A stretch of DNA of 20,380 nt, from the IMG/VR virus record IMGVR_UViG_3300024328_000800, positions 1 through 20,380 of that record. One strand, given 5' to 3'. The position numbers and the translations under genes were made by a program. Numbering within the stretch: position 1 is the stretch's first letter; each line of letters starts with the position of its first letter. The DNA comes from a virus. The notes under the pieces are model-generated. The model had not been told where the DNA came from, made no database searches, and worked only from the letters and a program-made list of their open reading frames with translations. Positions 6,453-16,832 of this stretch are shown here, in pieces.

Positions 6453-6677
6453 ATGTTACAAGCAATCTCAATATATTTACTAATCGGAATCTTAATTAAC
6501 TTATTAGTAGATTTAATGTATGATTGGATTGGTAGGAGTAACATTGACACTAAATTAATAGACACTAACATGAGTAATGAAAAATGGGATAACTTTACAA
6601 AGGTAGTAGTTACTTTATTATGGCCAATATGTATTGTTTATGTGATAATTCAAATTTTTAACGAATATACAAAATGA
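6453..6677 (+). CDS. Small membrane protein, two transmembrane helices (74 aa)
   Basis: Hydrophobic segments at about residues 4-25 (AISIYLLIGILINLLVDLMY) and 51-69 (VVVTLLWPICIVYVIIQIF) flank a hydrophilic loop of about 25 residues. Predicted inner membrane protein. The short C-terminal tail FNEYTK overlaps the uvsE start (ATGA). It could be a holin or superinfection-exclusion type protein by size, but nothing in the sequence decides this. Confidence 0.6.
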   Translation: MLQAISIYLLIGILINLLVDLMYDWIGRSNIDTKLIDTNMSNEKWDNFTKVVVTLLWPICIVYVIIQIFNEYTK

Positions 6678-7624
6678 CAAATTACGGATATTGTTGTATC
6701 AACAAAACACTTGCCGAACAAGATATTAAAGTCGGCAGAAAAATGATTAAAAAAACCTTTACTGAAAGAGGTATTGAATATGCAGGTCAACTTGCACTCT
6801 TAAATGTAAGTGATATGTGTAAGATTATTAAATGGAATAATGAAAATGGCATTAAACTTTATCGTATGTCTTCAAGTATGTTTCCATGGTCCACTGAATA
6901 TGATTTAAAAGATCTTCCTACATATAATAGAATTAAAGTATTATTACAAGGCGCAGGTCACATGGCTATTGAAGGTGGTCAAAGACTTACATTCCATCCT
7001 GGTCATTTTTGTGTATTGGCTAGCATGACTCCTAGGGTAGTATCTTCTGCGATACATGAATTAAATCAACATGGCGAAATCATGGACCTCATGGGTCTCC
7101 CAAGAAATCCTAACGCACCTATCAATATACATGTCAATACAACAATGGGTGGCAAGAAAGAAAGTATGGAAAGGTTCTGTAAAATATTTAAAACACTAGA
7201 TGAAAGCGTAAGATGTAGACTTGTTGTAGAAAATGATGACAAGAAAGCACAATACAGTGTAAAAGATTTGAAAGAAGGAATTTCAGATGTGATTGGATGT
7301 CCAGTTATGTTTGATTATCACCATCATTGGTGTTATGAAGATCCAATGCCAGTCAAAGAAGCATTTGAACTTGCAAGATCAACATGGCCAGTAGGAACTA
7401 AACAATGTACACACTACAGTTCATGTAAACAAATACATGAAGATAGTTCAGTTATGAATAGAGCACATGCTGATTATATTTATGAAACTATTCCAACATT
7501 TGGTTATGATGTAGACGTGGAATTAGAAGCTAAGGCTAAAGAACTTGCATTAATTAAATACTTAGAAGATTTAGCCCATAAAAAATTTTATGAGACTAAT
7601 ACTGGTCAAACCATGGTTGTTTAA
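6674..7624 (+). CDS. uvsE: UV damage endonuclease (UvdE/UvsE family)
   Basis: Nicks DNA 5' of cyclobutane dimers, 6-4 photoproducts and some other lesions, starting an alternative excision repair. The 316-aa product has the family's TIM-barrel motifs: N-terminal GYCCIN, YRMSSSMFPW (63-72), FHPGHFCVLAS (107-117) with metal-binding His108, NIHV (151-154) with His153, VVEND (184-188) with Glu186, a FDYHHHW block (213-219), and RAHADYI (263-269). These correspond to the metal ligands of the family as I remember it. Length is normal for bacterial UvsE. Its ATG overlaps the upstream membrane gene (ATGA), and no terminator is visible after the stop; element copy B starts 6 nt later. Useful for a surface-water phage exposed to sunlight. 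Confidence 0.95.
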   Translation: MTNYGYCCINKTLAEQDIKVGRKMIKKTFTERGIEYAGQLALLNVSDMCKIIKWNNENGIKLYRMSSSMFPWSTEYDLKDLPTYNRIKVLLQGAGHMAIEGGQRLTFHPGHFCVLASMTPRVVSSAIHELNQHGEIMDLMGLPRNPNAPINIHVNTTMGGKKESMERFCKIFKTLDESVRCRLVVENDDKKAQYSVKDLKEGISDVIGCPVMFDYHHHWCYEDPMPVKEAFELARSTWPVGTKQCTHYSSCKQIHEDSSVMNRAHADYIYETIPTFGYDVDVELEAKAKELALIKYLEDLAHKKFYETNTGQTMVV

Positions 7625-7629
7625 TTAAA

Positions 7630-7719
7630 ATTGTTAATAACTTTTGAAAAAAAGTGTTAAAAAGTTTTCACGGGTCAAAGATTATAGTTATATTAGTATT
7701 ATAATTAAAACTTAAAAAA
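7630..7719 (+). promoter_or_regulatory. Three-block intergenic element, copy B (promoter-like)
   Basis: Blocks at 7630-7654, 7665-7676 (TTTTCACGGGTC) and 7688-7719 are identical to copy A (511-600) with equal spacer lengths (10 and 11 nt) but different spacer sequences. The copy-A hairpin cannot form here because the complementary spacer bases are missing. It ends 2 nt before the ATG of the T9SS-type gene. Conserved spacing with free spacers points to protein binding, most likely a promoter. Confidence 0.7.
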
Positions 7720-7721
7720 AC

Positions 7722-8363
7722 ATGAAAAAAATAGCAATAACAATATTTACATTATTTACACTATCAACAACTGCACAGGATATTTGTAATGCACTAAACA
7801 TAACTTACACCCAATTTGGGACAAACTCTTTTAGATTATATTCAAATCTAGATAGTGTTAACATGTCGGGGGCTACTTCATTTAGATGGAAAGCATTTCC
7901 TGATAGTGTATTCGCACAATTAGATACTGCTAATTATAATTTTAAAACATGGTTAGATAGTACTAATATGAGCTGGGAGAGTGGGGATTCTGTGCCTTTT
8001 ATACATTTTCTTTACCATAATACTAATCATAGAAAAAAATATGGAGTATTTTTATTTTCTTTTTTAAGAGATGGAGATACATGTGTTATTCCATTTACAA
8101 TGAGTAGAACTAATAGTCCAATTACTTGGCATATGAATCAAATACCTTCATTTAATACTACAGTAGTTACTCCACCTAGTACTGGGAATCCAAATGGCAA
8201 TACTACTGGAATTGAAGATTATACTAATACTAATAAAAAATTAGTTGCAGTGTATAATTTAATGGGACAAATTGTAAATCCTGATGAGGTTAACAATCAA
8301 GTTTTAATATATCTATATGATGATAGAAGTATTGAAAAGAAGTACAAACAAACAATGTTCTAG
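7722..8363 (+). CDS. Secreted protein with T9SS type A-like C-terminal sorting domain
   Basis: 213 aa. Residues 1-19 (MKKIAITIFTLFTLSTTAQ) are a classic signal peptide with the T-A-Q end common in flavobacteria. The body (20-147) is beta-rich and Ser/Asn/Thr-rich, with no enzymatic motif. Residues 148-170 are a Pro/Thr/Gly/Asn linker. The last 42 residues fit a type A sorting domain: KKLVAVYNLMGQIV (172-185, compare D-x-x-G-R-x-V) and VLIYLYDDRSIEKK (194-207, compare YIYDDGTVEKK). In Bacteroidota such domains target proteins through the type IX system to the surface. The gene is monocistronic, between element copy B and the terminator at 8384. Whether phage- or host-derived is open; cargo function unknown. 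Confidence 0.8.
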   Translation: MKKIAITIFTLFTLSTTAQDICNALNITYTQFGTNSFRLYSNLDSVNMSGATSFRWKAFPDSVFAQLDTANYNFKTWLDSTNMSWESGDSVPFIHFLYHNTNHRKKYGVFLFSFLRDGDTCVIPFTMSRTNSPITWHMNQIPSFNTTVVTPPSTGNPNGNTTGIEDYTNTNKKLVAVYNLMGQIVNPDEVNNQVLIYLYDDRSIEKKYKQTMF

Positions 8364-8383
8364 ATATATTTAAATATTTAAAC

Positions 8384-8411
8384 AAAAAAGGTGGCCTAGG
8401 CTGCCTTTTTT
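8384..8411 (+). terminator. Rho-independent terminator of the T9SS-type gene
   Basis: AAAAAAGGTGGC (8384-8395) pairs with GCTGCCTTTTTT (8400-8411) around a CTAG loop, 12 pairs with two G-U wobbles and a six-T tail, 21 nt after the stop codon. The flanking A and T runs could let it work on both strands. Confidence 0.88.
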
Positions 8412-8472
8412 ATTTTCAAAAATATTAATATATTATAATGATATATAACTAATAACAAAAAAATACTTTAAA

Positions 8473-9096
8473 ATGAATACTAATCAAATATTATCATTCG
8501 AAGAGTTTTCAACAAGAGGTACAGATACTGCCACTGCTGAAGCTCCAACAACAGATACTGCCACTGTAGATACTGATACTACTGTTACAGATACTGAAAC
8601 AACAGACACTGACTCTGAAGAAACAACTGACTCTGAAGAAACAGAAGAAGAAACTACTGATACTGAAGAAACAGAAGAAGAGCCAGTTCACACACACACT
8701 CACTCAGCTGCTGAATCTGTTCAAGTAAATGAAGAAGAAGAAACACATACGACAACAGTTGCTGAAATGTACAAGAATATTAAAGAAGCTTGTAAAAATG
8801 AAGCAATGGCATATGAAGCTGATGATTATGCAGAACATACAAAAGACACATACATGACTGAAATGGCTACACTTGCTGCTGAAACTGCATGTAATGTTAT
8901 TCAAGAAATGTATGAAAAAGAAGATTGTACAAAAGAACAATATGAAGCTGCATGTAATTCTATAAAAGAAGCTTATGCTAAAAAATGTAACGAAGCATGT
9001 GAAGCATATGGTACTTCTGAGAATGAAAGACCTGAATCTGAGAACGAACCAGTTCAAGGTCCAGAAAATTCAATCATTACTAAAACAGAAGCTTAA
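8473..9096 (+). CDS. Acidic Thr/Glu-rich protein with a Cys-rich helical domain
   Basis: 207 aa in two halves. Residues 16-80 are low complexity, almost only Thr, Asp, Glu, Ala and Ser, encoded by imperfect repeats of ACAGATACTGCCACTG and GAAGAAAC-type words, so disordered and very acidic. Residues 95-180 are helical with six Cys and an apparent internal duplication (IKEACKNEAMAYE and IKEAYAKKCNEACEAYG). The N-terminus MNTNQILSFEEFS recalls the F-E-x-F of the capsid-targeting-like starts at 1555 and 1872. No family recognised. A prohead core or internal head role is possible by analogy with acidic T4 core proteins, but that is speculative. First gene of a two-gene unit between terminators at 8384 and 9311; overlaps the next gene by 1 nt (TAATG). 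Confidence 0.65.
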   Translation: MNTNQILSFEEFSTRGTDTATAEAPTTDTATVDTDTTVTDTETTDTDSEETTDSEETEEETTDTEETEEEPVHTHTHSAAESVQVNEEEETHTTTVAEMYKNIKEACKNEAMAYEADDYAEHTKDTYMTEMATLAAETACNVIQEMYEKEDCTKEQYEAACNSIKEAYAKKCNEACEAYGTSENERPESENEPVQGPENSIITKTEA

Positions 9097-14181: not shown

Positions 14182-15912
14182 ATGAGCACATTTACCCATA
14201 TTTTGGAAGAAGGCCTAAGCGCTGCAGATTTTGTATTCGATGAAATAACAGATGCTGGGGAAGTCATGTATACTAATCTTGTAGATGGCTTAACATCTAA
14301 GGCATATAGTGGTATAATAGAAGGTGCTAAAAATAATCCAACTCCTGAAGAAGTACAAAAGGCATTATTTAAAGCTTCAAATCCAGATTTTGACCCCGCA
14401 CTCGTTAAAGAGGAAGGACTTTATCCTAAATCAAACTTTAAACAGCCTACTACATATTCTGTTAAAAAAGGAGTAGAATCAGACGCAGAGTCAGATGCAC
14501 CTACTAGTAGAGTTAATAATTGGACTTTATTAAAATATAAAGGGCAAGGAGAAAATCCAGATTATAATAAAGCAATGGTTGGATCAGGTGCAGGAGATTC
14601 TGGTTTAGCAATAAACCCTACTGCAAATAACATTATTCAAAGAACTTTTACTAAAGGATCTGCTAGTTTTAGATATTTTCAAAAAGACTTTATATTTTGT
14701 GAACATTATGGTAAAGTTACAAATAATCATATGTTAACTTTAAGAAGGTTTCCATTCCCAGTTGAAGATAATATATTAGATCCTAAAAAATATAGCATGC
14801 AAGAAAAAAAGGTTGTTGATAATATTCAACCTGCTCTTGCACAGGCCGTAACGTGGATGAGTCCAACTATTGGAAATAGTTTAAATGAGATATTAAAATT
14901 TGGAGTTGGTTTTAAATGGAAAGAAACCGAAGCTGAGCTTCAAACTATTGAAAGTAAACCTAGAGATAGAGGCATGGTTGGAGGAATGATTGATAGTATT
15001 CCATATTCTCAAAATGCACAAGGTGGTTTAGCAGGAGAGAGTGCAGCAACTACTCATAGAAGAAAGCAACAAGGAGGTGGCTGGGATCCTTTAAAACAAA
15101 CATATCCTAATCACACATTCGCTCCACTTAACGTTATAAAAAGTATGCAAGTTAGAGATAGTGGTTTAACCTTTGATCAAAGTTTTAGTTTGACATTTAA
15201 TTATGATTTAAAAGGAATTCCAAATACTTCTCCTAAAATGGCTTTTTTAGATGTTTTAGCTAATTTATTAGTATTGACATATAACAATGCTCCTTTTTGG
15301 GGAGGAGCAATTAGATACACAGGAGGTGGAGTTGTTGGTAATTCATTAGGTGATCTTGAAAAATTAAAAAAGGGAGATATTAAAGGTTTTATGGGAAGTG
15401 TAATGAAAGATATAGGAGGAACTATAAAAAATGTTGCAGAAGATCTTAAAGGTGCACTCAGTGGAGATAGTAAAATATTAAATAACGTAATCGGTGGAGG
15501 ATTGATGGATTTATTTGGTGGACCACAAGGTGGACAAGTTGCAGCTGCATTCTTAACAGGAGAATCTACAGGTCAATGGCATTTAACGGTTGGAAATCCA
15601 TTAAATCCAATTGCTGTAATTGGAAATTTAGGATGTAAGAAAGCTGATTTTCAATTTGATGGACCATTAGGTTATGAAGACTTTCCTACTAAACTAAAAG
15701 TTGTAATTGAATTGCAACCTAATAGGCCAAGAGATAAAGCAGATATTGAATCAATGTTTAATGCTGGTAAAGGTAGATTATATTTACCAGAACAAGGAGT
15801 ATTAGACCCTAGTAATGATACATATGATGTTAGTGCTTATGGTAATAAAGAATTTAAAGGAAGAAGTAAAGAGGCATTTATTAAGAAGGCCGCAAAAACT
15901 GCAAACGGATAA
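14182..15912 (+). CDS. Large tail/baseplate protein (576 aa), tail-tube-junction candidate
   Basis: First gene of the late structural block. The N-terminal 130 residues are hydrophilic; the core holds strands and LRRFPFPVEDNI, then FDQSFSLTFNYDLKG, KMAFLDVLANLLVLTYNN and PFWGGAIRYTGGG. A Gly-rich section lies around 390-460, and the C-terminal domain contains WHLTVGNPLNPIAVIGNLGC, GPLGYEDFPTKLKVVIEL and NRPRDKADIESMF. These look like a tail-tube-like beta fold with insertions, as in baseplate-tube junction proteins (gp48/gp54 role in T4). The downstream neighbours are a LysM protein and hub, which supports a baseplate role. The exact T4 equivalent is not certain. Overlaps the LysM gene by 1 nt (TAATG). 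Confidence 0.65.
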   Translation: MSTFTHILEEGLSAADFVFDEITDAGEVMYTNLVDGLTSKAYSGIIEGAKNNPTPEEVQKALFKASNPDFDPALVKEEGLYPKSNFKQPTTYSVKKGVESDAESDAPTSRVNNWTLLKYKGQGENPDYNKAMVGSGAGDSGLAINPTANNIIQRTFTKGSASFRYFQKDFIFCEHYGKVTNNHMLTLRRFPFPVEDNILDPKKYSMQEKKVVDNIQPALAQAVTWMSPTIGNSLNEILKFGVGFKWKETEAELQTIESKPRDRGMVGGMIDSIPYSQNAQGGLAGESAATTHRRKQQGGGWDPLKQTYPNHTFAPLNVIKSMQVRDSGLTFDQSFSLTFNYDLKGIPNTSPKMAFLDVLANLLVLTYNNAPFWGGAIRYTGGGVVGNSLGDLEKLKKGDIKGFMGSVMKDIGGTIKNVAEDLKGALSGDSKILNNVIGGGLMDLFGGPQGGQVAAAFLTGESTGQWHLTVGNPLNPIAVIGNLGCKKADFQFDGPLGYEDFPTKLKVVIELQPNRPRDKADIESMFNAGKGRLYLPEQGVLDPSNDTYDVSAYGNKEFKGRSKEAFIKKAAKTANG

Positions 15913-16832
15913 TGAATTTTAAAACAATATTAGATAAATTAATAGAGGGTGGAAAACTTATTTTAGCTCAACCTACATTTATATTTAAAGATGATGAGGT
16001 TCCATTTAGTGAATATGTTGTCAAAAATACAGATGCTGGTAGAATTGATTTAATAGCTGAGGAATATTATGGAAGTGCTGTTGATTTAGAAAGTATTTTA
16101 AAATTTAATGGAATATCTGATCCGTTTTCAATTAACGAAGGTGATGTTTTAAAAATGCCAATAGATGATGCTGTTATTAAAAAATTAGAAAGGCCTAGCA
16201 TTGCAATAAGTAATATAGTTAGACAAGAATTTATAGATGGTAAGAAATTAACTAAAAAAGATAAAAGAAGAATTGATTTTCTTAAAAAGAAATATAATCT
16301 TAAAGAAGTACTCCCACCTAATATGTTAAAGTCTGGATTTAAAAACTTTGAATTAAGGAAAGAAGAAGGTGAAGATGTCATTAAGATGGGAATGGGTGTA
16401 TCTACTCCAGAATCTTCATTTTCTGCACCTAAGAAGAAAGCCAAGAAAGTTTCAGTTAATGAGTCTGAAGCTGATTCAATTTCTAAAAAAATTAAAAGCG
16501 GTGCTAATGAAGAATTAACAGATGCTGAAATTGCAAAATTAGAAAATAGTGGAATTAAATCTTCTAATATTTCTAAAAAGGCGTCTAAGTTAGCTACTAC
16601 ATTTGATGGAAAAGAAATAGGAAACCGAGGAAATACTTCTTCTAATTTCACAGCCAATACGTCAGATGCATTAGACGATGACGGTAACAAGGTAGGAAAC
16701 CAATCAGTAACTCAATCTGAACAAATTGAAGGTGATAAAGTTACAAAAACTGTCACAAAAACTATTGTAAAACCAGATGGCTCTTCTGAAACTACTCAAA
16801 CTGTTACTTTTTCTAAATACGAATCTAAATAA
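15912..16832 (+). CDS. LysM-domain baseplate protein (gp53/gpX-like)
   Basis: 306 aa. A LysM-like domain spans about residues 35-83: YVVKNTDAGRIDLIAEEYYG, then DLESILKFNGISDP and INEGDVLKMP, which is the classic order (aromatic strand, helix, N-x-I-x-D, G-x-x-L-x-[IMV]-P). In contractile tails, LysM proteins sit at the tube-hub junction (P2 gpX, Afp7-type) or in the wedge (T4 gp53 carries a LysM-like domain). The second half (about 140-306) is low complexity, rich in Ser, Lys, Thr and Asn, probably disordered, ending in a Thr-rich strand region (TVTKTIVKPDGSSETTQTV). Peptidoglycan binding is not implied. It follows by TAATG and is 17 nt before the hub gene. Confidence 0.8.
   Translation: MNFKTILDKLIEGGKLILAQPTFIFKDDEVPFSEYVVKNTDAGRIDLIAEEYYGSAVDLESILKFNGISDPFSINEGDVLKMPIDDAVIKKLERPSIAISNIVRQEFIDGKKLTKKDKRRIDFLKKKYNLKEVLPPNMLKSGFKNFELRKEEGEDVIKMGMGVSTPESSFSAPKKKAKKVSVNESEADSISKKIKSGANEELTDAEIAKLENSGIKSSNISKKASKLATTFDGKEIGNRGNTSSNFTANTSDALDDDGNKVGNQSVTQSEQIEGDKVTKTVTKTIVKPDGSSETTQTVTFSKYESK

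Follow-up and report, generated by a model that had tools for sequence, protein, structure and literature searches.

A phage protein with a signal peptide and a compact C-terminal tail, best read as a reduced type IX sorting signal

Phage-encoded cargo of the host type IX secretion system (T9SS) is already published, as the available text of two papers documents (PMC7468147, PMC6949934). In Cryophage, phage genes bear T9SS sorting domains and their cargo parts differ among phage variants; the accessible sections of that paper already contain the proposals that the host system is used and that superinfection is excluded (PMC7468147). BACON-bearing gut phages of cluster 2 likewise encode T9SS sorting-domain proteins, and in one case the protein is a fusion with BACON domains, according to the available part of the report (PMC6949934). 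Type A and type B signals and their shuttles are treated in PMC12618676, available in part. The last 22 residues of HBP35, comprising motifs D and E, are described in the accessible portion of PMC10202324 as sufficient for T9SS secretion of GFP, the lysines of motif E being needed.

The locus described here resembles Cryophage in being a phage gene with a signal peptide, a sorting signal (here deduced by comparison) and a variable cargo part. The Cryophage genes, in the text available, have annotated type A domains on an endoglucanase, a glycoside hydrolase and a PA14 protein (PMC7468147), whereas the present gene ends in a compact tail that scores below the type A cut-off and has a passenger without an assigned function. 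With the BACON-bearing gut phages it shares the phage encoding of proteins with T9SS sorting domains; the phages and the sorting domains are different ones, and the compact tail is not reported in the accessible part of that paper (PMC6949934). No description of the compact tail class turned up in the literature searched, bioRxiv and most subscription papers lying outside the scope of that search.

The window, meaning the whole stretch of DNA that was analysed, is a virus record of 20,380 bases with Hsp20, UvsE, PhoH and helicase genes identified by profile or family matches, and with DnaJ-like and RNase H-like proteins recognized by eye in the list of open reading frames (ORFs). The virus appears to be large and its host flavobacterial, and record names and contig identifiers are read as indicating a marine origin of the phage and its hosts. 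The gene of interest encodes a cargo protein of 213 residues, identical copies of which occur in four further IMG/VR contigs (one is 205 kb long); a fifth IMG/VR contig (L006) holds a relative with 83% identity. Only two alleles are known among the five contigs holding the gene. The features of the locus are as follows.

6674–7624, + strand: uvsE, left neighbour of the insertion (TIGR00629, 180 bits)
7625–7721, + strand: leader, almost identical in the window and L006 (allele comparison); promoter putative
7640–8418, + strand: moron-like insertion, approximate extent (L210 flanks align at 7526–7639 and 8419–8560)
7722–8363, + strand: coding sequence of the predicted secreted cargo protein, 213 residues (ORF list, translation)
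7722–7775, + strand: signal peptide, residues 1–18, predicted cleavage before Gln19 (read by eye; Q-rule from the available text of PMC5837995)
7776–8162, + strand: passenger, residues 19–147, the part differing between the two alleles (allele alignment, 94/127 identical)
8163–8210, + strand: Pro/Thr/Gly/Asn linker, residues 148–163 (sequence)
8211–8360, + strand: predicted compact sorting tail, residues 164–213 (tail profiles; profile match 8217–8351)
8384–8411, + strand: terminator-like hairpin with 12 pairs and a 4-base loop (folding)
8473–9096, + strand: acidic Thr/Glu-rich gene, right neighbour of the insertion (ORF list and comparison of loci)

The 213-residue frame at 7722–8363 on the plus strand, proposed in an earlier sequence-only reading, was confirmed by the ORF list and its translation. 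The flavobacterial-type signal peptide claimed there holds as well: by eye and by the Q-rule, the N terminus, MKKIAITIFTLFTLSTTA followed by Q (A18/Q19), fits a Sec signal peptide whose cleavage would expose glutamine, which is usual in Bacteroidetes according to the accessible text of PMC5837995. The Pro/Thr/Gly linker is present, with Asn as a further component, and so are the two motifs pointed out in that reading, LMGQIV and LIYLYDDRSIEKK. A Sec signal peptide at the N terminus (by eye) is combined with a predicted sorting domain at the extreme C terminus.

Structure prediction, proposed for residues 20–147, gave no confident fold. The two models of the whole protein had mean pLDDT values of 44.4 and 56.9; in the second, tail residues 174–209 formed three strands at a pLDDT of about 80, the passenger and the rest being poor. 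A type A domain is a seven-stranded Ig-like beta-sandwich. Foldseek returned nothing from the PDB at E ≤ 0.001 (best E 0.22). A PKD-like passenger was considered and rejected: two of the 296 genomes gave three weak matches between them (per-genome E values of 5.9e-4 to 7.1e-4), and matches so weak and from near-identical proteins are not much above chance. A tblastn search of the phage collection with the whole protein gave eight records (best E 2), two of which were inspected, and these were taken as chance; the tail alone had no match in the phage or plasmid collections.

Membership of a virion structural family, named beforehand as a possible outcome, was looked for and not found: the cargo protein has no Pfam or PHROG match at E ≤ 1. 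That the protein is nevertheless part of the virion, with an incidental likeness in its tail, could be argued from phage tail-like genes that lie in the same window from position 14182 (weak PHROG matches for 15912–16832). The missing matches speak against this, as do the signal peptide, the absence of the gene from close relatives and a tail score far above that of shuffled sequences (both below), and we consider a virion role very improbable.

The C-terminal domain had been described as a type A-like sorting domain, to be checked by a profile search. The protein does match the TIGR04183 profile, over positions 4–42 of 72 (E 0.0083), but at 16.1 bits it falls below the cut-off of 23. With our own type A HMM the window tail scored 11.5 bits, the best of 5000 shuffles reaching 14.9. 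PNP at the start of the domain, found in all 20 canonical type A tails examined from ten Flavobacteriales genomes, is absent from the window tail, and profile–profile comparison with the 20 canonical tails was weak (probability 14% and 27%). What stood of the earlier description is the sorting-type tail, the whole protein scoring 41.5 bits with a host-only HMM (below); the strict type A assignment was rejected on the TIGR04183 score, the lack of PNP and a length of about 45 residues against about 72. For type B and type C domains, the models of which are presumably part of the NCBIfam library scanned, the scan at E ≤ 1 gave TIGR04183 alone for the cargo protein. Judged by its sequence, the tail is not type A in the strict sense and is a member of a compact class of about 45 residues. 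Compact and type A C-terminal domains (TIGR04183, PF18962) are alike in their C-terminal place, the signal peptide at the other end, a DhhGR-like block, terminal lysines and their occurrence on homologous passengers; they differ in that type A has about 72 profile positions and PNP, whereas the compact tail has about 45 and no PNP.

Three phage tails (from the window, its 83% relative L006 and a further phage locus, L031) served as queries in a scan of genomes, and 259 stretches matched. Tblastn confirmed 20 of them, and each of the 20 record titles refers to Flavobacteriales, to Bacteroidetes or to a family or genus belonging to them; by title, two pairs among the 20 share an assembly. The search patterns fixed the YDD[RG][ST]IEK block (or a second block) and left the terminal position free, so identity in that block is selected and terminal position is not: the tail forms the end of the protein in 20/20 confirmed loci. 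A signal peptide was seen by eye in 16 of the 20 proteins, three others run off the fetched stretch and one is without. An earlier genome scan with two near-identical tails had given 226 pattern matches, none of them confirmed.

The compact tail was found in at least 106 of 395 Flavobacteriales genomes at E ≤ 1e-6 with a 22-row profile (A5; up to 18 candidates scored in each genome), and in a phylum-wide draw in 2 of 118 genomes at E ≤ 1e-4, one being the centre genome itself. Ten host genomes carry between 1 and 41 compact tails each at E ≤ 0.01, and the same ten have from 33 to at least 150 TIGR04183 matches each at that threshold. Among twenty compact-tail genes taken from the best matches of genome G014, visual inspection from the called starts showed a signal peptide in 14 and none in six. 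TIGR04183 matched only 2 of the 22 A5 tails at E ≤ 10, the window's being one, and gave 14.6 bits for the whole L006 protein; Pfam produced a single weak match to one of the 22 tails (E 0.16). The compact class is modelled by neither Pfam nor NCBIfam. A tail HMM built from 36 host rows and no phage sequence gave the cargo protein 41.5 bits (E 2.9e-11, searching the ORFs of 130 phage loci), with ten matches that are all copies of the cargo protein or its L006 allele; the window tail alone scored 46.0 bits, the highest score among 5000 shuffles of it being 14.2. Because the host tails had been found by their likeness to phage tails, these scores express consistency rather than independent proof.

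The compact tail and the type A domain exchange places on homologous passengers. Homologues of a host secreted protein, P0003 (from L035), occur in 47 of 196 genomes at E ≤ 1e-30, and among the best 30 loci the compact tail is present in 18 (36.0 to 72.6 bits), type A in seven (12.9 to 54.4 bits) and neither in five (cut, broken or weak). The two HMM scores on these tails are inverse, one being high where the other is low; the tail of L035 and that of the L257 gene belong to the HMM training set. SprA, the T9SS translocon, was detected in 49 of 50 tail-bearing genomes (10/10 and 39/40) and in 0/14 controls, the lone tail-bearing genome without a match being possibly incomplete; SprA is expected in most Flavobacteriales genomes, so its presence is weak support and a failure would be more telling.

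The DhhGR block and the C-terminal lysines are read as the counterparts of type A motifs D and E, and the compact tail looks like a natural remnant of these two motifs. It is alike in this to the last 22 residues of the HBP35 C-terminal domain, where motifs D and E alone are reported to be sufficient; that construct was made by truncating a type A domain experimentally, whereas compact tails are natural (PMC10202324, in the text available). The compact tail is best read as a T9SS sorting signal in reduced form. The tail might instead serve as a sorting or anchoring signal of another Flavobacteriales pathway, which would place the phage protein elsewhere in the envelope. TIGR04183 misses the short host tails even at E ≤ 10 (2/22, including the window's), the profile likeness of compact to type A tails is weak, and both tail types stand together in the same ten genomes, all of which could suit such a pathway; the homologous passengers with either tail, SprA in 49/50 tail-bearing genomes and the apparent match to motifs D and E count against it, and we hold it to be quite unlikely. 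Routing of the cargo protein through the T9SS of the host is, with good confidence, the probable reading.

The gene occupies a putative moron-like insertion between uvsE and the acidic gene. In the closest relatives without it, L210 (UvsE 96%) and L211 (95%), uvsE is followed directly by the acidic gene, and the L211 alignment supports the right border of the insertion from 8414. Two features expected of phage morons are seen, an extra gene absent from close relatives and a hairpin of its own, and the earlier suggestion of an accessory cassette with its own terminator is borne out to that extent: the hairpin at 8384–8411 folds at −14.2 kcal/mol (z −3.03; 0/200 shuffles equally stable), though a consensus scan for terminators found none. 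The promoter-like element that had also been suggested was not established, the 11 sigma-70-like sites being not above chance (7.0, s.d. 3.0, in shuffles). A compact-tail ORF is present in at least 5 of 52 viral loci encoding a UvsE relative, some of these loci being partial; where the genes after uvsE were listed, for 18 loci, the compact-tail gene is found in two and absent from 16.

The acidic Thr/Glu-rich gene itself varies in size (207 residues in the window, 197 in L006, 168 in L210 and 234 in L211), and L211 has an additional gene of 192 residues after it, so the place looks variable.

The two alleles differ chiefly in the passenger, where 94/127 residues are identical (dS 0.63, dN 0.21); the signal peptide is identical at 18/18 residues, the linker at 15/16 and the tail at 49/50 (tail dS 0.04). 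Among the other genes compared between the window and L006, identity ranges from 92.4 to 100% in 22 of 23 and is 87.8% in the remaining one. The dN of the cargo gene, 0.12, is the highest of 24 genes, and its dS of 0.35 is exceeded by three others (0.37 to 0.53). This pattern fits exchange of the passenger between conserved ends, although with only two alleles exchange is inseparable from selection and unproven. For the whole cargo gene, dN/dS is 0.35, a value from two alleles that suggests constraint.

The gene could also be a captured host gene whose product is secreted with no selected role for the phage. Its absence from close relatives, the existence of two alleles only in five contigs and the lack of an assigned passenger function are in keeping with that; the retention of signal peptide and tail while the passenger changed, the dN/dS ratio of those two alleles and the recurrence of the tail in three other phage protein groups (below) are not, and we regard neutral capture as unlikely.

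The second-lowest identity between the window and L006, the 87.8% above, belongs to a small membrane-type protein at 6453–6677 of the window (dN 0.083).

The proposed check for related phages showed the same tail in other phages, on three further protein groups. IMG/VR was scanned with five tails, four from hosts and that of the phage locus L126, giving 173 pattern matches; 78 loci were confirmed, with a compact-tail ORF in 78/78. By blastp these ORFs fall into three groups with 73, 4 and 1 members, the single one coming from the contig of L031, and the window protein makes a fourth group; at 95% identity the 78 ORFs form 64 clusters. A signal-peptide-like start was scored in 72/78 tail-bearing ORFs and in 55/123 other ORFs of at least 300 residues, a background that is not a clean control because the rule is loose; many of these background ORFs are suspected to be one recurring lipoprotein neighbour. 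Of the six tail-bearing ORFs without such a start, two are short fragments and the other four begin about 150 bases or less from the edge of the locus.

The group of 73 (L287–L342 and L344–L360) consists of proteins mostly 600–1020 residues long with the compact tail at the end, and 71/78 tail-bearing phage ORFs contain at least three repeats of the GC-D-A-NY-A type. L126, which belongs to this group, has a MAM domain, with a holin-like gene (below cut-off) and an M15 peptidase nearby, on a 67-kb contig that also encodes a portal protein and a large terminase. Marine virus AG-345-P14 was rejected as a relative of the L126 cargo, the match consisting of three pieces that cover 17% of the cargo, and an HMM search of 12.2 kb of AG-345-P14 found neither tail type. 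A lipoprotein-like gene of 376 residues (L366:7034–8161) lies near the tail-bearing gene of contig G411 and has no PHROG match at E ≤ 0.001. Within the window's own phage clade, a signal-peptide protein of 641–643 residues with a type A-like tail (E 1.4e-4 to 0.01) is encoded at L251:8697–10622, L249:8650–10581 and L250:8650–10581.

A role in lysis or late release, such as keeping progeny off cell debris rather than excluding phages, is suggested by the neighbours of two of these genes: in G411 a holin-like gene and an M15 peptidase are close to the gene for the tail-bearing protein, and in L031 that gene adjoins a gp23 capsid gene. The window gene sits between a repair gene and the acidic gene, outside any lysis module, and such a role seems to us improbable, to about the same degree as neutral capture.

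Under the preferred reading, T9SS-routed cargo, the protein would be exported by Sec, as its sequence suggests, and cleavage of the signal peptide would leave an N-terminal Gln. The compact tail would then be recognized by the host type IX system, as the tail swap and the co-occurrence with SprA imply, the cargo would pass through the SprA translocon, and the variable passenger would be released or displayed outside the infected cell. The likeliest use would be to alter the surface of the host during infection, for example by excluding competing phages or keeping progeny from re-adsorbing; surface modification as the purpose is put forward tentatively, at somewhat less than an even chance, and the phage exclusion or receptor masking named in the earlier reading is conjecture. 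We give about equal weight to the truth and the falsity of a wider proposal: that a small-genome Flavobacteriales lineage uses a natural compact type IX tail, about 45 residues long and unrecognised by current models, and that at least four separate phage protein groups bear it as a means of bringing variable, in part adhesin-like proteins to the outside of infected cells, probably altering what can bind the cell.

If the compact tail works as a sorting signal, many secreted Flavobacteriales proteins are missed by present annotation. A working compact tail would also make the tail type a link between phages and host lineages, show which part of the type IX signal suffices in nature, and render phage remodelling of the infected-cell surface through the host secretion machine testable.

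Two further genes were noted on the 205-kb phage contig G003. One (L028:18048–19166) encodes 372 residues that combine a lipoprotein-like start with a glycoside hydrolase family 16 domain (PF00722, E 9.3e-27), and may be a phage-encoded enzyme acting at the host surface. The other (L026:7222–7815) encodes 197 residues, the start of which resembles a signal peptide, and has a DNA/RNA non-specific endonuclease domain (PF01223, E 2.2e-23); if exported, this nuclease could serve in scavenging or in the destruction of incoming DNA.
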